A stretch of DNA of 8,401 nucleotides from Candidatus Latescibacterota bacterium (lineage in GTDB: Bacteria; JAAXHH01; JABIQT01). Made by a program: the position numbers and the translations under genes. Positions 1 through 8,401 of the stretch are shown here, piece by piece (position 1 is the first letter of the stretch; each line of letters begins with the position of its first letter). The notes beneath the pieces were generated by a model. The model was not told the DNA's origin. It saw only the letters and a program-made list of their open reading frames with translations, and did not search any database. The stretch lies in assembly GCA_018667995.1 (NCBI GenBank), contig JABIQT010000984.1, forward strand, positions 1-8,401, in the 5' to 3' direction.

Positions 1-558
1 GCCCGTTAACAGTCGCCACCGTCCGCGGTCTTGAGGTGGTTCGACCACGAGTAGCCCAGCTAGGCCACCCGTGAGGAACATGTATGGAGCGAGCCATGTC
101 TGTGCCCATCCGGCGAAGGAATGGAATGGTGGTAGAAGCACCATTGAAATTGCCGCCAGCACACTGAAGGGGGTAGACAAACCCCACTTCCGTAGAAGGT
201 GTTGAGTCGCGACAGCAAACAGGACTATTCCGGCGACGCCCAAGCAGCGGAGGAGTCTGAGAGAACTGATGTCGTCAACAAACGAGAAGGCGATCCTGTA
301 GATGACTCCGGAAACCGGTCGTAGATCAGCAAAAGCCTTGTTTCCTGCATCTACTGCCAGTGACGGAAAGTCGTCGCTCCAGGCGGATCTGAACAAAGCG
401 AGGGGGAGATATAGCGCGCCTGCGGGCAGGCCAGTGAGAAGTGCAGAAAGAATGTGTGCTCCGGCAGAGTTGCCGGAGGCCACAATGCCACTCTCCCCAG
501 AGACTTCCGCTGCGTTCTCTCCAGGGTCATCCCTGAAGCGGTTGTTCACGATAGACAT
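1..558 (-). CDS. Polytopic membrane protein, possible GtrII/GT-C-like glycosyltransferase (partial)
   Basis: The minus-strand frame is open from ATG at 558 to the window edge, giving 186 residues with the C-terminus missing. An in-frame TAG at 580-582 just upstream means no longer start exists. About 35 polar residues come first, then hydrophobic segments near residues 36-57, 104-122, 130-149 and 154-172. Between the first two lie Asp62-Asp63 (in AWSDDF), Arg80-Pro81 (in DLRPVSG) and a VDDISSLRLLR stretch. An early acidic pair, an RP motif and a D-(I/L)-S-x-L segment before the next helix recall GtrII-type O-antigen glucosyltransferases, which take sugar from a polyprenyl-phosphate donor on the outer face of the membrane. 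This likeness is by eye. The gene is last in a minus-strand series, 30 bp after a methyltransferase, and the same series encodes a GtrB-like donor synthase. The frame is secure; the function could also be another polytopic membrane protein. Confidence 0.7.
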   Translation of the reverse strand, partial: MSIVNNRFRDDPGENAAEVSGESGIVASGNSAGAHILSALLTGLPAGALYLPLALFRSAWSDDFPSLAVDAGNKAFADLRPVSGVIYRIAFSFVDDISSLRLLRCLGVAGIVLFAVATQHLLRKWGLSTPFSVLAAISMVLLPPFHSFAGWAQTWLAPYMFLTGGLAGLLVVEPPQDRGRWRLLTG

Positions 559-588: not shown

Positions 589-1212
589 TCAGACTTTCTC
601 TGCGCAAATTGTGAACTCATAGAGTCCGTAATCTTGTCGAATGCGCAACCTTCGGCTCATGGCGTTCGCGAGCAAATCTGCAACTCGGCCGATCGAATCG
701 TAGTGGAGTCTCTCGTCTCGAAGCTGTTGGTCTGAGTGGGTACTGAGGAAGTTCAGAGCAAGCCGGGACTCAGCTAGAGACGCCAACTGGACAATCGTTG
801 CGTCAACATAGTCGGTCCAGATGTCAAGGTCGGTACCAGCACGGACGTTAAACAGGCCACTCGCTACGACGATACTTGATGTCGGAGCACTACTCAGATC
901 GGCAGTCACAACGAACGCATCTGCATCTTCTGGAAACAGTTGTATTGCTGTTTCTATCATGTTTTGTGATATGTCGATACCTGAGTAGGCGCCTCGGTGG
1001 TTGTTGTCTCGAAGGAATCCAAGGAATGATCCGAATCCGCATCCAACATCGAGTACCGATTCAGTTGGACGAAGTTTCGTGATCTCATGGAGGATACTGA
1101 ATCGTAGAAGTTGAGACTCTGCACTATTCCAGTCCACACCGCGTGCTGTCGGCCCGTGGGATAGGAGACAATCGTCGTAGTAGCTCCGCACGCTTTCGAA
1201 ATGATCGTTCAT
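589..1212 (-). CDS. Class I SAM-dependent methyltransferase (HGxTxRGVDWNS subfamily)
   Basis: This is a 207-residue soluble enzyme predicted to transfer a methyl group from S-adenosylmethionine, probably to a sugar or glycan, in the cytoplasm. An N-terminal cap carries HGPTARGVDWNS at residues 19-30, a signature I recognise from small methyltransferases in surface-polysaccharide loci. The SAM-binding glycine motif VLDVGCGFGS is at 53-62 and the acidic ribose-binding residue is probably Asp80 (SGIDIS). The C-terminal strand DYGLYEFTI at 194-202 is typical of the Rossmann fold. ATG at 1212 is preferred over an in-frame ATG at 1248 because GGGGAGGA (1221-1228) sits 8 nt upstream and the extra 12 residues do not look conserved. 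It lies between another methyltransferase upstream (207 bp gap) and the membrane protein downstream (30 bp). The acceptor is unknown. Confidence 0.9.
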   Translation of the reverse strand: MNDHFESVRSYYDDCLLSHGPTARGVDWNSAESQLLRFSILHEITKLRPTESVLDVGCGFGSFLGFLRDNNHRGAYSGIDISQNMIETAIQLFPEDADAFVVTADLSSAPTSSIVVASGLFNVRAGTDLDIWTDYVDATIVQLASLAESRLALNFLSTHSDQQLRDERLHYDSIGRVADLLANAMSRRLRIRQDYGLYEFTICAEKV

Positions 1213-1419
1213 GCAACTCTTCCTCCCCTCTCCATCGAAATGAAGCATCCACAGATCTGAGCTTGTCGCAAGGCGGTAGTGATGTCTCTAGCGGACCAGA
1301 GCACTGGTTGGTGTGTCTGCAGACGGTGGGCAAATCGTGAAGGCATCCTGTGCTCCATTCCAGTGGGTCGCTAAAGATCTGGGCTGAATTGACTCAAGAG
1401 CAAACTCGAACTTGGATAC
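1213..1419 (-). other. 207-bp gap between the two methyltransferase genes
   Basis: I see no convincing gene here. Frames through it are short and lack recognisable motifs. It contains a 10-bp palindrome GTCTGCAGAC at 1315-1324 and, at its left end, the ribosome site of the downstream methyltransferase. The gap is long compared with the 25-30 bp spacings elsewhere in this minus-strand series, so it may hold an internal promoter or a decayed remnant. No clear -10/-35 pair was found. Confidence 0.4.
1221..1228 (-). promoter_or_regulatory. Shine-Dalgarno site deciding the start of the 589-1212 methyltransferase
   Basis: Read on the minus strand the site is GGGGAGGA, 8 nt before ATG at 1212. It favours this start over the in-frame ATG at 1248, since the site would otherwise lie inside the coding sequence. 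Confidence 0.6.
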
Positions 1420-2208
1420 TCAGTCCCCCAGACTTCCCAGAGCTATCAACTCTAGGCATCGACTCTGTACCTGAATCGGCCGGATGCCGAGTTCGAGCAA
1501 TCCGAAGACCCTGTCGTTTAATAGAAACCGAAAGAGGCTCGGAAACTCTGTCTTCCACCGCACCTTGCGATTGCCTGATTGGAGTGTCCTGTCGTCTGGT
1601 GACCACTCAAGCCGCTCAGTTTCTGAGCGAGACACGATCCTGTTGCCAAACGAGAAGGTGAGATTTGTTACCGGGAACCCACTTCCGTGGATCGTGATGT
1701 GCTTTAGTCCGCAACTCTTGAGTAGATCACGAAGCGACTCGGGACTGTAACGGCGGAAATGACCGTGTGCTTCGTCTTCGATAGACCACTTGTCCATTCG
1801 CGCGGGAACCGCAATGCAGAGCCGTCCGCCTGGACTGCGCAAGGCCGAGCAGAGGCTTCGGACAAACTCATGGTCGTCGTCGATGTGTTCAACGACCATC
1901 GCGGCTACGACCAAGTCGAAGTCGCAGAACTGCTCAGCCGTTCCAAGATTCCACTCTACGTCTGCAAATCTAATAGAGCAGTCGTGCACGCGCGATACAG
2001 AATCGAGAGCTCGCCATGCATCGGCTAGTGATGCTCCGTTAGCGTCGATCGCTGTGACTTCGTGTCCGTCAAGTGCCAGACGAATCGCCAACTGGCCTGA
2101 ACCACATGCCACTTCAAGGATTCGCTGCTCGGTCCCACGTCCAACTAGTGATCGCAACCTCGCGTAGTGCAGGAGTGAACCCGGCGGATCCAGGGCTGTC
2201 CAGATCAT
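1420..2208 (-). CDS. Class I SAM-dependent methyltransferase (Methyltransf_11/23-like)
   Basis: This is a 262-residue predicted soluble methyltransferase. Motif I is ILEVACGSGQ at residues 30-39, the acidic end of strand beta-2 is Asp55 (VTAIDANG), and motif II with its following EH pair is FDLVVAAMVVEHIDD at 97-111. The stretch DEAHGHFRRYSPESLRDLL at 145-163, with the HGHxRRYS pattern, is common in small-molecule and glycan methyltransferases of the UbiG/UbiE-like group. About 90 further residues contain a basic, Trp-rich patch that could shape the acceptor site. ATG at 2208 is the only reasonable start: an in-frame TAG lies at 2212-2214, although the ribosome site is weak. It follows the GtrB-like gene by 25 bp, so the two are probably co-transcribed. 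It differs clearly from the neighbouring methyltransferase, so the two probably act at different positions or on different acceptors. The substrate is unknown. Confidence 0.9.
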   Translation of the reverse strand: MIWTALDPPGSLLHYARLRSLVGRGTEQRILEVACGSGQLAIRLALDGHEVTAIDANGASLADAWRALDSVSRVHDCSIRFADVEWNLGTAEQFCDFDLVVAAMVVEHIDDDHEFVRSLCSALRSPGGRLCIAVPARMDKWSIEDEAHGHFRRYSPESLRDLLKSCGLKHITIHGSGFPVTNLTFSFGNRIVSRSETERLEWSPDDRTLQSGNRKVRWKTEFPSLFRFLLNDRVFGLLELGIRPIQVQSRCLELIALGSLGD

Positions 2209-2233: not shown

Positions 2234-3208
2234 TCAATGGAGATTGCCCCCAGGATCGCGCTCCGGCCGGTCCTCGCCATTCAGGCATCCGACCTGCTCT
2301 GCAATGACATAGCGCGGCCGCCGCTTCACCTCCACGAACATGTTGCTCACGTAGACTCCGATGACCCCTTGGATGGTAATGATTGAACCGGCGAACATGG
2401 CGAAGATCGTGACAAGGCTGGTCCAGCCGGCGACAACCTGTCCCGTAGCCTTCTGGTAAATAGCGAAGCTGGCGAAAGCGACGCCGACTAGGGCAATCAT
2501 GAACCCGAAAGCAACGACTAGATTCAGGACCCTAGTGCTATGAAACATCATGCCGTCAAGACCATGTCGCAATTGCCGGCGTAGCGAATAACTGCTCACC
2601 GAACCTTTACGCCTGGATCGCAGGTATGACACGCTGATCTGTGAGAAACCGAGCCACCGGAGGACCATCAGGTAGTGGCCGTTCCTCTCCTTGAGCATGA
2701 GGAATGCATCCACGACCTTTCTGTCCAGCACACTGAAACTGCCTTCAGCGGGATCCACGGGTATTCCGCTGAACAACTGAAACACTCTGGCATAGACCCG
2801 CGCCACCAGGCGCCGCGACAGATGCTGGTAGTTGCCAAGTCGACGAGCAGTGACGACATCGTGGTTGTTCGCGTGCTCCAGGAGTTCGGGAATCACTTCG
2901 GGAGGGTCCTGGAGGTCGCAGTCCATGACAATCACCTTCTGTCCTCTCGCCTGTTCAAGGCCTGCCGCGATCGCTGCATGCTGCCCGAAGTTCCTTGAGA
3001 GGCGTAGGCCCACGAGGTGGGAGTTGATCTGTGCCAGTTCTTCGATTCTGGTCCAAGTGTCATCGGGTGATCGGTCATCAACGAGAATCACTTCATACGA
3101 GCGTTCGCTCTCCGAGAATGTGGAAGCCAACCTAGACAGCAGCTCTGAGAGCGTAGAACAGCACCCGTAGACGGGTACGACAACGCTAATGTCTGGATCC
3201 GGAGTCAT
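2234..3208 (-). CDS. GtrB/DPM-like family 2 glycosyltransferase (polyprenyl-phosphate sugar synthase)
   Basis: This 324-residue protein is predicted to transfer a sugar from a nucleotide sugar to polyprenyl phosphate on the inner face of the membrane. The GT-A domain begins with SVVVPVYG at residues 8-15. It continues with the nucleotide-binding VDDRSPDDTW at 43-52, RNFGQHAAIAAGL at 72-84 and the metal-binding DCDLQDPPE at 96-104. A basic, serine-rich segment RKGSVSSYSLRR at 200-211 precedes two transmembrane helices near 228-252 and 262-290, then VEVKRRPRYVI at 292-302. This order and length match bactoprenol glucosyltransferase GtrB and bacterial dolichol-phosphate-mannose-synthase-like enzymes. 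ATG at 3208 fits the family N-terminus; an in-frame ATG at 3235 would add nine residues and has no good ribosome site. It is the first gene of a minus-strand series that ends in a GT-C-like membrane protein, a plausible user of its product. The sugar cannot be read from sequence. Confidence 0.92.
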   Translation of the reverse strand: MTPDPDISVVVPVYGCCSTLSELLSRLASTFSESERSYEVILVDDRSPDDTWTRIEELAQINSHLVGLRLSRNFGQHAAIAAGLEQARGQKVIVMDCDLQDPPEVIPELLEHANNHDVVTARRLGNYQHLSRRLVARVYARVFQLFSGIPVDPAEGSFSVLDRKVVDAFLMLKERNGHYLMVLRWLGFSQISVSYLRSRRKGSVSSYSLRRQLRHGLDGMMFHSTRVLNLVVAFGFMIALVGVAFASFAIYQKATGQVVAGWTSLVTIFAMFAGSIITIQGVIGVYVSNMFVEVKRRPRYVIAEQVGCLNGEDRPERDPGGNLH

Positions 3209-3479
3209 TCGACTGGCCCCGCCGTCCTTGAGCATCTGGCCACGGCCATGTTTCCGGTAGTTCGCGACAACGCGGATCGAAGGTATGTGCTCCCATGATT
3301 GGCCACGATTAACCGTGCAGGCTCCGACAGAATTTCACTTTGGCCTTGATGACACATGGGACTCCGTCTCAAATCCGGTCGACGAGAATGGCTTGGTCCG
3401 GCCCAAGCGCGACAATGTGAGTAACGGTAGTGGCTGACCGGGGCAATCGGCCGTACCAGAATGGAACCCGTTGTGTCCT

Positions 3480-3509: not shown

Positions 3510-3516
3510 AGTCAGT

Positions 3517-3538: not shown

Positions 3539-4201
3539 ATGTCGAAACCTCTAGTGGTGTTCGGCACAGGAGCGATCGCTGAACTGGTGGCATACATGTT
3601 CACGACCGAAAGCAGTCGTGTCATTGCTGCGTTTACCGTAGATGAGCCATTTGTCGAGTCTCATTCGGCGTTCGGATACCCTCTAGTTTCTTCAAGCGAA
3701 GTCTGCGACAAATACCCACCTGATAAGTACGACATGTTCGTCGCGGTCAGCTACACACAACTCAATAGACTTCGTATTGAAAAATACTCCTGGGCGAAGG
3801 AATCTGGATACCATCTACCAAGTTATATTAGCCCAAGAGCTACGCTGTTTCCAGATTTCTCTTGTGGCGACAACTGTTTGATATTTGAGGATAACACTAT
3901 TCAGCCATTCGTGACGATCGGGTCGAACGTGACTCTGTGGAGCGGCAACCATATTGGTCATCATACGATCGTTGAGGACGATGTGTTCATCGCATCACAC
4001 GTGGTTATCTCCGGTGGAGTAAAGGTCGGCAGGGGTACGTTTATGGGTGTGAATGCGACGATCAGGGACCACATCACCATCGGTGAGAACTGCGTAATCG
4101 GGGCAGGGACACTCATTCTGGATGATGCTGAACCCGGGACGCTATTTCGAGGGGAGCCTTCAGTCGGCCAAGATGCCCGACTGGCACGTCGGGGACGCTG
4201 A
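3539..4201 (+). CDS. NeuD/PglD-like sugar acyltransferase (left-handed beta-helix)
   Basis: This is a 220-residue soluble enzyme predicted to transfer an acyl group, usually acetyl from acetyl-CoA, to an amino or hydroxyl group of a sugar or nucleotide sugar. Residues 1-90 form a Rossmann-like nucleotide-sugar-binding domain starting KPLVVFGTGAIAEL, with YPPDKYDMFVAVSYTQLN at 59-76. From about residue 95 the hexapeptide repeats of a left-handed beta-helix begin. A histidine cluster in GNHIGHHTIVEDD (His138, His141, His142) and His154 in IASHVVISGG sits where PglD-type enzymes keep the catalytic histidine. FMGVNATIRDHITIGENCVIGAG at 168-190 continues the helix. The protein begins at ATG 3539, behind a strong ribosome site. 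The next gene starts 3 bp after its stop. Base composition is AT-rich in places (about 40% GC at 3781-3900 by hand count), unlike that next gene. N- versus O-acylation and the acyl group are undetermined. Confidence 0.9.
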   Translation: MSKPLVVFGTGAIAELVAYMFTTESSRVIAAFTVDEPFVESHSAFGYPLVSSSEVCDKYPPDKYDMFVAVSYTQLNRLRIEKYSWAKESGYHLPSYISPRATLFPDFSCGDNCLIFEDNTIQPFVTIGSNVTLWSGNHIGHHTIVEDDVFIASHVVISGGVKVGRGTFMGVNATIRDHITIGENCVIGAGTLILDDAEPGTLFRGEPSVGQDARLARRGR

Positions 4202-4204
4202 CCA

Positions 4205-5107
4205 ATGGCTTGGAGGAGACATGGTTGGGTGGATCCACCATGTGATCGGCCATGGCGAGCGACCCATGCAATGTTGCCGTGCGCCATTCCGGTTGGCGAC
4301 GACCACTTTCGGGTCTACTTCAGCGGTCGTGATGAATCTGGTCGCTCGTCCATCTCGGCAGGTCTACTGTCCGTACTCCCAGAGCCTGTGTGGCTGGAAC
4401 TCGACGGGGCCCCCCTACTCCTTCCCGGTGAGACAGCGGCCTTTGACGGCGCTGGAGTATCGGTTTCCTTCGTAACCGGCGGGGAACAGGAAACCGAGGT
4501 CTGGTATCACGGCTGGTCGCTTGGACGTGACGTACCATGGTGGAACAGCATTGGGTTGGCAGTCGGTCCTGCAGGACGTGAACTTCGGCGTGTAAGTCGG
4601 GCACCGGTGTTCGACAGGTCCGAGGAGGATCCGTTTTCTCTGGCCTACCCGTTCATAGTGGATATAGGTGGAGTCGAGCAACTCTGGTACTCGAGTTACC
4701 GGAGATGGGCGAGAGTCGGCGACATACCTCCGATGGAGTACGTGGTCAAGCGTGCGACACGGTCGGAATCAGGGTGGATCTCCGACGGTGAGGTGCTTTC
4801 CCCGAATCCACCTGAGATCGCATTGAGCCGCCCCTGTGTCATTCAGGAGCCTGATTTGGTGAAGGCCTGGTTCGCAGTGAAGGAGGCATCAGACGACCTG
4901 TATCGGATTGGTTACGCGGAGTCGACGGACGGTAATGATTGGGACCGCTTCGACGACGTCGGAGGCCTAGTCGCTGCTGGAGAGGGAGGTGAGGTAGGCG
5001 AGGTGACCTATCCCTGGGTCGTGGACTCGGGCGGAAGACGATGGTTGTTCTACAACGGGGATGGGTACGGACGGACCGGCTTTGGGATAGCGGTCTGGCA
5101 CGACTAA
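4205..5107 (+). CDS. Five-bladed beta-propeller, glycosidase-like protein of polysaccharide loci
   Basis: This 300-residue protein lacks a signal peptide or membrane segment, so it is probably cytoplasmic. Repeated blade motifs suggest the five-bladed propeller fold shared by GH32, GH43, GH68 and GH130 enzymes. These are THAMLPCAIP with VYFSGRDESGRSSI (20-50), the WWNSIGLAV segment (112-120), PVFDRSEEDPFSLAYPFIVD (134-153), IALSRPCVI (205-213), YRIGYAESTDGNDWDRFDD (233-251) and VTYPWVVDSGGRRWLFYNGDGYGRTGFGIAV (267-297). Similar predicted glycosyl hydrolases recur beside glycosyltransferases in O-antigen and capsule loci, but to my knowledge their reaction is not settled. It may trim, bind or phosphorolyse an oligosaccharide or a sugar intermediate. 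Its ATG is 3 bp after the acyltransferase stop, and GGGGA at 4191-4195 inside that gene is the likely ribosome site, so translation is probably coupled. GC content is visibly higher than in the acyltransferase gene. Membership of the fold is firmer than any enzyme assignment. Confidence 0.85.
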   Translation: MAWRRHGWVDPPCDRPWRATHAMLPCAIPVGDDHFRVYFSGRDESGRSSISAGLLSVLPEPVWLELDGAPLLLPGETAAFDGAGVSVSFVTGGEQETEVWYHGWSLGRDVPWWNSIGLAVGPAGRELRRVSRAPVFDRSEEDPFSLAYPFIVDIGGVEQLWYSSYRRWARVGDIPPMEYVVKRATRSESGWISDGEVLSPNPPEIALSRPCVIQEPDLVKAWFAVKEASDDLYRIGYAESTDGNDWDRFDDVGGLVAAGEGGEVGEVTYPWVVDSGGRRWLFYNGDGYGRTGFGIAVWHD

Positions 5108-5130: not shown

Positions 5131-6000
5131 TTAGCCCTGCCCGGAACGGTAAAGGCGGTCCTCACCTGATTGGTAGTACTCGTCGACTGATGTCACAACT
5201 CTCGTATACCACCCAAGCAGTTGCTGGGTCCGAGGAGGAAGTGCTCGAACTGCCTCCTCGCCCAGGGCGCGCACATAGTCGATTTGTTGCTTGAAGAAGG
5301 ACTTAGTCCATTGATGGTTGATTGCGTATCGGGAGTTCCCAGATGTGTTGTTGCCAGCGGCATGCCACAGGGTGGAGTCGAACACGATGATCGATCCCGG
5401 CTCGCAACATGCCTGTACTGCGTGCTTGGCGAACTCTGAGGCTAGTTCTGGATCAGTAGGTGTGCGATCAAGCTGGTGGCTCCCAACGAGCGCCCAGGTA
5501 GCTCCTGACTCCATGGAGAACTCGGAGATGACAACGAGAGTGTTGAGCGATGCAACGTACCCGTTCATGTAGCGGGGGAAGTCCGGATGCGGCCGGACCT
5601 GAAATATCTCCTCGGATTTCAGTGGCAACTGGGTCGAAGGTAGGACGAACGCGTTCTGCAGGTGGCATATTGCCGTAGGGCCGATCACCCTATCGATGAT
5701 AGCTAGCAACTCTGGAATCTCAAAATATGTGAAAAAATGCCTACTAAATTTCATTGGAATTCTGGCTACACCAGCCTCGCCGGCTGCCATAAGTCTGTCA
5801 TTGCCGATTTCCGTTGTAACTGCATCTAATGCCACATCCATCTCATGACGAGCGTCTGAAATAAGATCAGCTGATAGAACATCTGTGACAATAACAATTC
5901 CGTCTTCAGAAACACGGTGTACAACCGCGTCAAGCCAGTTACTGTCAGTAGATGAGACCTGATGTACTGTTGACAAATACTGATTAGGCGGCTCATGCAT
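5131..6000 (-). CDS. Phytanoyl-CoA dioxygenase (PhyH)-family Fe(II)/2-oxoglutarate oxygenase
   Basis: This is a 289-residue soluble protein of the usual length for bacterial PhyH-family oxygenases, which couple 2-oxoglutarate decarboxylation to hydroxylation of a substrate. The iron-binding triad is visible: His138 and Asp140 in RPHPDFPRYMNGY, and the distal His213 in VFDSTLWHAAGNN. Arg224 in GNSRYAINHQW is placed to bind 2-oxoglutarate. The N-terminal DGIVIVTDVLSADLI (33-47) is the typical opening of the family. ATG at 6000 lies 8 bp after the aminotransferase stop and an AGAAGAGG ribosome site overlaps the last codons of that gene, so the two are almost certainly one operon. The 5' half is AT-rich (about 44% GC over 5701-6000) and the 3' half is not (about 55% over 5161-5460), by hand count. 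Likely roles are hydroxylating an acyl donor or a sugar intermediate; the substrate is unknown. Confidence 0.92.
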   Translation of the reverse strand: MHEPPNQYLSTVHQVSSTDSNWLDAVVHRVSEDGIVIVTDVLSADLISDARHEMDVALDAVTTEIGNDRLMAAGEAGVARIPMKFSRHFFTYFEIPELLAIIDRVIGPTAICHLQNAFVLPSTQLPLKSEEIFQVRPHPDFPRYMNGYVASLNTLVVISEFSMESGATWALVGSHQLDRTPTDPELASEFAKHAVQACCEPGSIIVFDSTLWHAAGNNTSGNSRYAINHQWTKSFFKQQIDYVRALGEEAVRALPPRTQQLLGWYTRVVTSVDEYYQSGEDRLYRSGQG

Positions 6001-6008
6001 TGTTACAG

Positions 6009-7163
6009 TTAACCTCTTCTAATTGGAGTTTCAGATGCAATTGTTGCTTCAACTACTCGTTCCACTTCATCACATTGAATGCCTGAATAGAGTGGAAGCC
6101 GTACCAGACATTCAGCAACGCTAGTCGATACTGAGCAGTCCTCCCGATTGGCACCAGTTAGTCTACCCATGCGAGAAGCATGGAGTGGTTGATAATGGAA
6201 TACCGCTGTTATTCCATGCCGATCCAAATGATCTATGAACCTGTCCCGGTCGTGAGGTGAGGGAAAGAGTAGGGGGAATGCGTGGCAGGCTGAGGATACG
6301 TATTCGGGAACTGACTGAAAGCGTACGCCGCGCTGTAGGCCCCATTGTTCCAACCGATTCCGGTAGGTGCTCCAAGCATGTCGCCTGTTGGCTTGGATAA
6401 GAAGGAAATCCTCAAGTTGTGCAAGCAGGATTGCTGCTGATACCTCCGACAGAACATAACTTGAACCAGTATCTACCCACGTATATTTGTCCGCTAAGCC
6501 GCGCCGGAATAGCGATCGGTTGGTTCCCTTCTCTCTGAGAATCTCTGCGCGGTCCTTGTATGAATCGTCGTTTATTAGCAGAGCTCCGCCTTCACCACAG
6601 GAGATGTTTTTCGTTTCGTGAAAGCTCTGGGTTGCGAGATTGCCAAAGGTACCCAGGGGTGCGTCGTTCCATGTGCCACCCAACCCATGAGCATTATCCT
6701 CAATCAGGATTAGGTCGTGATCATCGCATAGGGAGCGAAACGCCTCCATGTCGCAGGCGACACCTCCATAATGCATTACGACGATCGCAACGGTTCTACT
6801 GGAAACGCAACTACGTGCCGATTCCGGTGAGATGTTCAGTGTGGCGGGGTCGATGTCGGCAAACACCGGGCGGTAGCCCAACATAGCGAAGGCGTTAGCC
6901 GTGGAGGGAAACGTGAAGTCGGGAACGATGATTTCTGATCCAGAAGGGGCGTCCAGAAGCATCGCGCACATCTCGAGGGCGTGGGTACAAGAGGAGGTGA
7001 CCAATGCTGAGTGGGCACCCGTCAACTCACCGAGCAGCGACTCCGCTCTTGCACAGAATACGCCGTCCCCGGCCAGCCTGCCGGACTCTAGGACCGTGGT
7101 TACGTAATCAAGCTCATTCATCGAGCGGTATGGCCTGTTAAAGGGGATTCTCTGAATTGTCAC
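6009..7163 (-). CDS. rffA: dTDP-4-amino-4,6-dideoxygalactose transaminase (WecE/RffA-type, DegT/DnrJ/EryC1/StrS family)
   Basis: This is a 384-residue PLP enzyme predicted to convert dTDP-4-dehydro-6-deoxyglucose plus glutamate to dTDP-4-amino-4,6-dideoxygalactose in the cytoplasm. Visible signatures are IPFNRPY (6-12), ELDYVTTVLESGRLAGDG (17-34) and SSCTHALEMCAMLLD (57-71). PDFTFPSTANAF (81-92) and HYGGVACDME (131-140) follow. The PLP-contacting Asp156 is in LIEDNAHG. Lys185, the Schiff-base lysine, is in SFHETKNISCGEGGA, followed by REKGTNRSLFRRG (210-222), DKYTWVDTGSSY (225-236) and AVFHYQPLH (320-328). These match the order and wording of E. coli WecE closely, more than generic aminotransferases of the family. 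The start is GTG at 7163, the only start that includes the conserved IPFN segment; its ribosome site is weak. The dioxygenase gene follows after 8 bp. RmlA/RmlB-type genes for its substrate are outside the window. Fuc4N specificity is inferred from sequence likeness. Confidence 0.95.
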   Translation of the reverse strand: MTIQRIPFNRPYRSMNELDYVTTVLESGRLAGDGVFCARAESLLGELTGAHSALVTSSCTHALEMCAMLLDAPSGSEIIVPDFTFPSTANAFAMLGYRPVFADIDPATLNISPESARSCVSSRTVAIVVMHYGGVACDMEAFRSLCDDHDLILIEDNAHGLGGTWNDAPLGTFGNLATQSFHETKNISCGEGGALLINDDSYKDRAEILREKGTNRSLFRRGLADKYTWVDTGSSYVLSEVSAAILLAQLEDFLLIQANRRHAWSTYRNRLEQWGLQRGVRFQSVPEYVSSACHAFPLLFPSPHDRDRFIDHLDRHGITAVFHYQPLHASRMGRLTGANREDCSVSTSVAECLVRLPLYSGIQCDEVERVVEATIASETPIRRG

Positions 7164-7208: not shown

Positions 7209-7394
7209 TTGTTGAAATCCATGCGTGGATGCCCGTACTTTGGTGAGGCATCTGCAAAGTTCTGCGCAGATCGGCTGGGCGAGGGTGACCGACTCATGCC
7301 ATTTCCTCGTTCATTGGGCAACTTCGGGTAAGGGTACTGGGCGGCCACTGTTTCACTCTAGTTCGGTGATATATGACGTATGGTATCTGACGAC

Positions 7395-7426
7395 ACCTTC
7401 CCCCTAGTTCTGTCGAGGGGGAAGGT
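7395..7426 (+). other. Perfect 11-bp inverted repeat (hairpin) in the leader of the GT87-like gene
   Basis: ACCTTCCCCCT at 7395-7405 and its exact complement AGGGGGAAGGT at 7416-7426 enclose a 10-nt loop. The RNA stem would be very stable. No U-tract follows on either strand, so it does not look like a standard intrinsic terminator. It lies 52 nt upstream of the GTG start at 7479, and so in the leader if transcription starts further left. It could be a leader structure, an attenuator, an RNA-stability element or a protein site. Confidence 0.6.
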
Positions 7427-7466
7427 AGGATCCCACTCGCCAGATCGCGTCTACCCGGGGGTAGTC

Positions 7467-7473
7467 GGAGGAG
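7467..7473 (+). promoter_or_regulatory. Shine-Dalgarno site deciding the start of the GT87-like gene
   Basis: GGAGGAG at 7467-7473 is 5 nt before an in-frame GTG at 7479. A second purine run, GAGGAGG at 7481-7487, is only 3 nt before ATG at 7491, which is too close to be ideal. The first arrangement favours GTG at 7479; the choice changes the protein by four residues. Confidence 0.5.
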
Positions 7474-7478
7474 TAGGG

Positions 7479-8401
7479 GTGAGGAGGCACATGCCGGCTG
7501 TCGCACCTTCAGAGCTGAGAACAAGACCAGACGGAGTGGCATCCGGGTTCGGTCGCGTGATATCTGGTCTCAACAGTCGCATTTCCCTTGGATTGGTTGT
7601 GACCCTTTCCGCAGCACGGTTTGTCTACAACATCGCCCGATACTCAGTTGACAACGACCGTAGCGACACACTTCTTACCTTCCCAGTAGCCACTATCGCG
7701 CGATGGGTAGGTCGGTACCAAGATCTCTTTGTCGGTTCCCTGGCTCACGGATTTTACGGCCAGTTCCCACAGGACCTGTTGGACCTTGAGCGACATTGGA
7801 CCTACGGCCCCGTCTTTCACGTGTTGACATCGCCAATGCTTCTATTTCCAGACATCCAGTCCGGGTACTTGGCGTTCTTGGGTTTCACTATGGTGGTCTT
7901 TCTAGTGGCCGTGGCCGCCATGCTCCGAACAACGGGAATATCGCCTAGATTCGATGTTTCAACCGCAATTCTCGCTCTAGTGGTGTTGAATAACTACGCT
8001 GTCTTCAACGCGCTTACCCTTCGTTCGATTGAGGTTTACGAGTTGCTCTTCCTCGCCCTGAGTGCACGCGCGTTCTCACTCGGACGGCACCGAACTACTG
8101 GTATCCTGATTGGACTGGGCGCTCTTACAAAGTTCATCCCGGGTGTGGTGATCCCGTATTTCCTTATCCGCCGACAGTGGCGTGCCGCTCTCTATGCAGT
8201 AGGTACCGTCGCAGTTGGAATGGCAGCAGCGGAGTACCTTCTCGGTCTCGAATACAACCCGATGTTCTCAGGGTTGCTCTTTGGCGGTGATTCCATATAC
8301 CTGAACGAGTGCATGACTGAGGACATCTGCGCCTACTCCCGTCATCCTCACAATCAGGCACTTTCAGGAGTCGTCTTCCGGATCGGCTCTGCTCTCGGGT
8401 A
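7479..8401 (+). CDS. GT87-like (PimE/DUF2029-type) membrane glycosyltransferase (partial)
   Basis: The frame is open from GTG 7479 (or ATG 7491) to the window edge, giving about 307 residues with the C-terminus missing. After a basic, polar N-terminus come several hydrophobic segments, the first around residues 36-50. An aspartate-containing loop (SVDNDRSD) follows, then ERHWTYGPVFHVLTSPMLLF at about 104-123, which resembles the yPPvf...aPl signature of GT87. The stretch GILIGLGALTKFIPGVVIPYFLIRRQWRAAL at about 208-238 is highly characteristic of that family. A later loop contains two cysteines (NECMTEDIC) and the HPHNQALSG segment, comparable to the N-Q-S/A-x-x-G motif of the family. GT87 members such as PimE transfer mannose or related sugars from polyprenyl-phosphate donors outside the cytoplasm; the GtrB-like enzyme of this window could supply such a donor. 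Exact sugar and acceptor are unknown. It stands alone on the plus strand, divergent from the aminotransferase. Confidence 0.85.
   Translation, partial: MRRHMPAVAPSELRTRPDGVASGFGRVISGLNSRISLGLVVTLSAARFVYNIARYSVDNDRSDTLLTFPVATIARWVGRYQDLFVGSLAHGFYGQFPQDLLDLERHWTYGPVFHVLTSPMLLFPDIQSGYLAFLGFTMVVFLVAVAAMLRTTGISPRFDVSTAILALVVLNNYAVFNALTLRSIEVYELLFLALSARAFSLGRHRTTGILIGLGALTKFIPGVVIPYFLIRRQWRAALYAVGTVAVGMAAAEYLLGLEYNPMFSGLLFGGDSIYLNECMTEDICAYSRHPHNQALSGVVFRIGSALG

Follow-up and report, generated by a model that had tools for sequence, protein, structure and literature searches.

A WecE-type aminotransferase and a PhyH-family oxygenase of Candidatus Latescibacterota belong to a conserved gene cassette with a probable role in glycan modification

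Introduction

In a draft genome of Candidatus Latescibacterota, the gene for a WecE-type sugar aminotransferase is followed almost immediately by a gene for a PhyH-family oxygenase, which raises the question of whether this oxygenase takes part in amino-sugar biosynthesis and, if so, on what it would act. An earlier note on this DNA had taken the two genes as a coupled pair that may yield a hydroxylated product, and had set them against WecE loci that carry an acetyltransferase. The window, by which we mean the whole stretch of 8,401 nucleotides that was analyzed, is an entire 8.4 kb contig of the 6.06 Mb draft genome. Our analysis suggests that WecE and PhyH probably help to build an unusual amino sugar for the cell surface.

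Results

Gene content of the window

The two open reading frames were found where the earlier note had placed them, on the minus strand and separated by 8 bp (AGAAGAGGTTAACTGTAACAATG). The sequence AGAGG within the 3' end of WecE, 12 nt ahead of the PhyH ATG, could serve as a ribosome site for PhyH at a slightly long spacing. Since close homologues of both proteins occur in the same cassette in other genomes (see below), WecE and PhyH are not chance open reading frames. The same window also encodes a NeuD-family acyltransferase, a GH130-like propeller protein, a GtrB/ArnC-like glycosyltransferase and two methyltransferases, which were absent from the earlier note. The features are as follows:

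1..558, minus strand: multi-transmembrane membrane protein, an open-ended reading frame cut by the contig start, with about three transmembrane segments
589..1248, minus strand: SAM methyltransferase MT1 (GPTARGVDWN motif family; PF08242, E 2.9e-8)
1420..2208, minus strand: SAM methyltransferase MT2 (PF13489, E 3.1e-16), of a family often neighbouring PhyH in relatives
2234..3235, minus strand: GtrB/ArnC/PgfS-like polyprenyl-phosphate glycosyltransferase (GT2; PF00535, E 3.8e-26)
3539..4201, plus strand: NeuD/PglD-family left-handed beta-helix acyltransferase, likely an N-acyltransferase of an amino sugar
4205..5107, plus strand: GH130-like protein of 300 aa, predicted to be a five-bladed propeller, starting 3 bp after NeuD
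5131..6000, minus strand: PhyH-family Fe(II)/2-oxoglutarate oxygenase (ATG start, 289 aa)
6009..7163, minus strand: WecE/RffA-type dTDP-4-keto-6-deoxyglucose C4 aminotransferase of the DegT family (GTG start, 384 aa)
7380..8399, plus strand: GT87 (GT-C) membrane glycosyltransferase with transmembrane segments, cut by the contig end (PF09594, E 3.8e-22)

The NeuD reading frame is open from a GTG at 3515, with the ATG at 3539, preceded by GGAGGAAAGG, being the preferred start. The protein scored 175.2 bits against TIGR03570 (cut-off 160.8), contains four hexapeptide stretches and shares 46-54% identity with the NeuD proteins of the cassette elsewhere. Because this acyltransferase gene lies in the same locus, about 1 kb from the WecE-PhyH pair, the supposed contrast with acetyltransferase-paired WecE loci is not supported. 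The neighbouring 300-aa protein matched no Pfam or NCBIfam family in profile searches, and its AlphaFold2 model (pLDDT 91) predicts a propeller nearest to GH130-type enzymes, with BT_0996 as the top PDB match (E 2.7e-10) and the mannoside phosphorylase Teth514_1788 also among the matches. Such a fold would not be expected in a biosynthetic protein.

The GT2 protein has about two C-terminal transmembrane helices according to a hydropathy count, and its best NCBIfam matches, PgfS and ArnC, both remained below the cut-off. The truncated GT87 protein is a candidate polyprenyl-phosphate-sugar transferase that may belong to the cassette, and the membrane protein at the opposite end, which had no Pfam match, is possibly a GT-C enzyme as well. 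No GtrA-like flippase gene was seen within the window, whose contig is cut at both ends, and no WbqC gene is present on this contig. The source genome encodes RmlB. Its sole WbqC gene lies on another contig (C553), directly followed by a gene for a PIG-L/LmbE-like deacetylase and, beyond it, a partial DegT gene, an arrangement (L115, 432-1738) that looks like a separate amino-sugar locus. We had considered this contig as the missing end of the window's cassette and dropped it, as it is a complete short contig with the PIG-L-like protein and the partial DegT.

The aminotransferase and the oxygenase

WecE matched Pfam PF01041 with an E value of 4.8e-88 and scored 450.8 bits against the NCBIfam equivalog model PRK11706 (cut-off 375). 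Since its score of 400.3 bits against TIGR02379, the ECA_wecE subfamily model, fell below the cut-off of 434.85, the protein is designated WecE-type and not a strict enterobacterial common antigen (ECA) WecE. The nearest solved structures are 6blg and 4piw. Identity to cassette homologues elsewhere reaches 46%, and the PLP residues are kept, with the catalytic Lys185 (within FHETKN) and Asp156 both conserved in 64 other cassette WecE proteins. Residues 155-160, which adjoin the PLP-binding aspartate, read EDNAHG, while nearly all cassette WecE proteins have EDAAQG; N157 is unique among 65 proteins and H159 occurs in 4 of the 65.

PhyH matched Pfam PF05721 far above the gathering score of 22 (84.6 bits, E 1.5e-23). 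As the earlier note had read from the sequence, the metal triad His138/Asp140/His213 is complete and accompanied by the 2-oxoglutarate-binding Arg224, and all four residues proved invariant in 46 aligned PhyH proteins. The AlphaFold2 model (pLDDT 91) shows a double-stranded beta-helix oxygenase fold that matched FtmOx1 with a Z score of 27.5 (rmsd 2.5 over 253 residues). KanJ (6s0w) aligned with Z 22.7 and 20% identity, more than 40 other solved entries scoring higher, and EvdO1 was also among the matches. The fold searches with this model picked out no single substrate. The best-scoring solved relatives are TlxI, DhiD, SptF and FtmOx1, enzymes whose substrates are small natural products.

The closest cassette homologues of the window PhyH come from two other phyla, Bdellovibrionota (L029, 54% identity) and Cyanobacteriota (L060, 48%). 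These three proteins form one clade with a support of 100/99, distant from the single clade of 34 in which most other cassette PhyHs are found; identity between the clades is about 27%. Because at least two distant clades are represented, the cassette PhyHs need not share one reaction. The clade of the window PhyH is rare: at E 1e-40, it was detected in 2 of 338 genomes of the Leptolyngbya class, one being the seed and the other a weaker match, in 4 of 290 genomes of the phylum Bdellovibrionota (the seed and three weaker matches, two of which adjoin GT2) and in none of 385 genomes of the Bradyrhizobium class. Likewise, no close relatives were found in 16 related genomes or in phages, nor when this PhyH sequence alone was used in a pattern scan covering about 85,000 species genomes. 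Paralogues in the source genome share at most 39% identity with the window PhyH, over short stretches. This draft genome contains at least 22 PhyH-related places, an unusually large set.

A conserved cassette in at least eight phyla

A scan with a NeuD alignment returned at least 571 relatives of the NeuD subfamily, and 80 species-level loci among the matches listed were compared, with flanks of up to 10 kb. Within these listed loci NeuD is accompanied by the propeller in 79 cases, by WbqC in 73, by GT2 in 70, by WecE in 62 and by MT2 in 42, and MT1 (74 of 80) is a near-constant cassette member. The listed loci span eight named phyla: Pseudomonadota accounts for 65 of the 80, one locus is unassigned, and the others belong to Nitrospirota, Thermodesulfobacteriota, Cyanobacteriota, Myxococcota, Bdellovibrionota, Chloroflexota and Bacteroidota. 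The cassette was first seen on rhizobial and Azospirillum plasmids, which carry WbqC, GT2, a methyltransferase, NeuD, the propeller, GtrA or EamA, and rffA/WecE together with rfbA/rfbB. A clean example on a single strand is found in Leptolyngbya (L060), where the gene order is DegT, WbqC, GT2, MT1, NeuD, propeller, PhyH, methyltransferase, EamA, two methyltransferases, WecE and a 12-TM protein. The WecE-PhyH pair is part of this conserved cassette, which probably serves glycan modification, and not a stand-alone operon. We found no account of the cassette in the open-licence literature searched on WbqC, PhyH, O-antigen and the hydroxylation of sugars; it is widespread and, as it appears, undescribed. 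A weak sulfotransferase match within one cassette (L044, 11603-12205) hints at further variation of the product.

PhyH as an optional cassette member

PhyH is present in 36 of the 80 listed loci, compared to about 0.7 expected by chance, as calculated from the size and PhyH gene number of 30 cassette genomes. Since these 30 genomes were a non-random draw, with 16 picked because their cassette contains a PhyH, and since kinship makes the genomes non-independent, the ratio weighs more than a p value. In 11 of the 16 PhyH-positive genomes checked, there is no PhyH gene besides that of the cassette. The link between oxygenase and amino-sugar or glycan synthesis that had been suggested for the window is supported by PhyH lying within WecE-containing cassettes of many genomes and by one further case of direct contact between the two genes. 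A dedicated two-gene unit is not supported: besides the window, direct same-strand WecE-PhyH adjacency occurs in a single one of the 80 listed loci (L068, a Rickettsiales metagenome-assembled genome, where the two genes overlap by 4 bp), the commoner position of PhyH being after GT2.

PhyH is an optional part of the cassette. Since 44 of the 80 listed loci lack it, the core product does not require it, and on a NeuD tree that is itself weakly supported, PhyH switches between presence and absence about 21 times. MT2 was found in 28 of 36 PhyH-positive loci, seven of which are from Bradyrhizobium, but in 14 of 44 PhyH-negative loci (Fisher p 5e-5, kinship ignored), and other methyltransferases directly follow PhyH in L034, L063 and L082. 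The frequent presence of a methyltransferase beside PhyH points to hydroxylation followed by O-methylation, a link that stays suggestive, since a phylogeny-aware test of PhyH and MT2 had only two usable independent pairs and was underpowered. In the window, MT2 does not adjoin PhyH.

Other combinations of PhyH with aminotransferase genes were also encountered. In Cupriavidus metallidurans CH34 (L010, ~4.4-13.3 kb) and Methylobacterium bullatum (L011, ~5.4-12.6 kb), a second arrangement comprises a TPR/OGT-like protein, a DegT aminotransferase, WbqC, a distinct PhyH (~39% identity to the window PhyH over its C-terminal half) and a methyltransferase, followed in L010 by an ATP-grasp protein and a TylF methyltransferase. 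DegT-WbqC-PhyH occurs in the Leptolyngbya class, too (L113). On a plasmid of Roseibium aggregatum (L014, 2.7-8.8 kb), one run of genes includes three for PhyH, one for a radical SAM protein and one for a DegT aminotransferase, the last of which shares 4 bp with the third PhyH gene.

Discussion

A proposed pathway

The gene content of the cassette, its intact active sites and its conservation, together with the enrichment of PhyH and its frequent methyltransferase neighbours, lead us to favour, as rather probable, a reading in which the cassette would encode a self-contained pathway of the Gtr/Arn type for the synthesis and transfer of an N-acylated 4-amino-4,6-dideoxy sugar, with PhyH as its optional hydroxylase. 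Systems of this type attach a sugar to undecaprenyl phosphate, flip the product and transfer the sugar on the periplasmic side. RmlA and RmlB, encoded elsewhere, would supply dTDP-4-keto-6-deoxyglucose, which WecE would convert to dTDP-4-amino-4,6-dideoxygalactose and NeuD would N-acylate to dTDP-4-acylamido-4,6-dideoxygalactose. MT1 and WbqC may then tailor the acylated sugar. Once complete, the sugar would be joined to undecaprenyl phosphate by the GtrB-like GT2 and flipped by a small protein of the GtrA/EamA type, and a GT-C membrane enzyme would link it to an acceptor in the periplasm. Candidates for the membrane steps are found in relatives, which encode GtrA (PF04138; L063) or EamA (L024, L060, L018) and, in addition, proteins of ~500-545 aa with 7-12 transmembrane segments, mostly without a Pfam match. 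PhyH would add a hydroxyl to the sugar, or to the acyl group on it, when this is either a cytoplasmic nucleotide sugar or a polyprenyl-phosphate sugar, and in many genomes the adjoining methyltransferase might methylate the new hydroxyl. The appearance of KanJ, an oxygenase of amino sugars, among the fold matches of PhyH speaks for this role, as does the recurrence of the window's PhyH clade in cassettes of two other phyla. The order of the reactions, the substrates, the product and the acceptor are all inferred.

A more specific version, which we put forward tentatively, is that the cassette PhyH may be a nucleotide-sugar or polyprenyl-phosphate-sugar hydroxylase that opens an O-methylation site on a modified 4-amino-4,6-dideoxygalactose, within a widespread and undescribed Gtr-type cassette whose hydroxylation-methylation module would have been gained and lost many times.

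Alternative roles of the oxygenase

Relatives of PhyH catalyze varied oxidations, and the enzyme might instead oxidize the amino sugar without hydroxylating it, either by oxidative deamination as in KanJ or by ring or orthoester formation as in EvdO1. Its fold matches to these two enzymes, which act on amino-sugar or oligosaccharide antibiotics, would be in line with such a role; however, deamination would undo the WecE step, and the likeness to KanJ (Z 22.7) is no higher than that to many natural-product oxygenases, which leaves this reading improbable. More weight can be given to a hydroxylation of the acyl donor (acyl-CoA or acyl-ACP) or of the N-acyl chain, the latter being a sub-branch of our preferred explanation, that would lead to a hydroxyacyl-amido-4,6-dideoxy sugar, the product which the earlier note had named first. 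Human phytanoyl-CoA dioxygenase (2a1x), a weak relative of the window PhyH (E 2.8e-5), acts on acyl-CoA, although the best-scoring solved relatives act on small natural products, and no acyl-CoA or ACP gene was found in the window or among the annotated and HMM-scanned cassette genes. Glycans of this type do exist, as exemplified by the 4-(3-hydroxybutanamido)-2-O-methyl-viosamine of Pseudomonas syringae flagellin, but in this characterized case the genes indicate that the hydroxyl of the 3-hydroxybutanoyl group stems from the synthesis and reduction of a 3-oxoacyl chain (VioS, VioR, ACP) and not from an oxygenase (PMC3927599). On balance, acyl hydroxylation appears rather unlikely.

Finally, PhyH could serve an unrelated pathway, its position next to WecE being a coincidence in a genome that has more than 20 PhyH genes. 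The 22 matching PhyH places and the rarity of direct WecE-PhyH adjacency would fit such a placement, but not the presence of PhyH in 36 of the 80 listed loci, nor its being the sole PhyH in most PhyH-positive genomes checked. Moreover, the window PhyH is closer to cassette PhyHs of two other phyla than to its own paralogues. A chance placement is therefore already disfavoured and very improbable, and the favoured reading remains that of an optional hydroxylase within the cassette.

WbqC, which was termed functionally uncharacterized in 2017 (PMC5532660), the GH130-like propeller and the cassette PhyH are all components without a known or assigned function. Given these three components and its conservation over at least eight phyla, the cassette should define a common but unrecognized bacterial surface sugar. 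Hydroxylation of a sugar by an oxygenase before export would be an unusual route to glycan diversity, and since cassettes that are otherwise alike differ in whether they carry PhyH, the effect of this gene should be directly readable by strain comparison or deletion.

Comparison with known systems

The kanamycin B dioxygenase KanJ resembles PhyH in its PhyH-like oxygenase fold and amino-sugar substrate, but shares only 20% of its residues and acts on an antibiotic. A candidate comparison within a lipopolysaccharide cluster is XAC3597, a PhyH homologue of Xanthomonas citri without an assigned biochemical function, for which a transposon insertion mutant was biofilm-defective (PMC3130047). The viosamine island of P. 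syringae (vioA/vioB/vioM/vioS/vioR) likewise uses a C4 aminotransferase, an N-acyltransferase and an O-methyltransferase, VioM, which adds the methyl group, to make a decorated 4-amino-4,6-dideoxy sugar; however, its hydroxyl arises via ketoacyl reduction and not from an oxygenase, and no GtrB/GtrA, WbqC or propeller gene is named among its seven ORFs (PMC3927599). In the enterobacterial common antigen pathway (WecE/WecD), a WecE-type aminotransferase for the Fuc4N nucleotide sugar is similarly followed by N-acylation, whereas the cassette has a NeuD-family acyltransferase instead of WecD, extra methyltransferases and an oxygenase, and a WecE below the cut-off of the strict ECA model. Further parallels are the three-component Gtr system (GtrA/GtrB/GtrC) of O-antigen modification and the ArnB/C/E/F/T system for aminoarabinose, which combine a polyprenyl-phosphate GT2, a small multi-transmembrane GtrA/EamA-type protein and a large GT-C-like membrane protein. 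The cassette shares the GT2, has candidate counterparts of the two membrane proteins in some relatives and, for the GT-C enzyme, in the window, and includes a C4 aminotransferase related to ArnB. In contrast to these systems, the cassette has a WecE-type dTDP-sugar aminotransferase, with no ArnA-type gene among the annotated loci, and carries its own tailoring set, consisting of NeuD, WbqC, MT1 and the GH130-like propeller, together with the optional PhyH and MT2.
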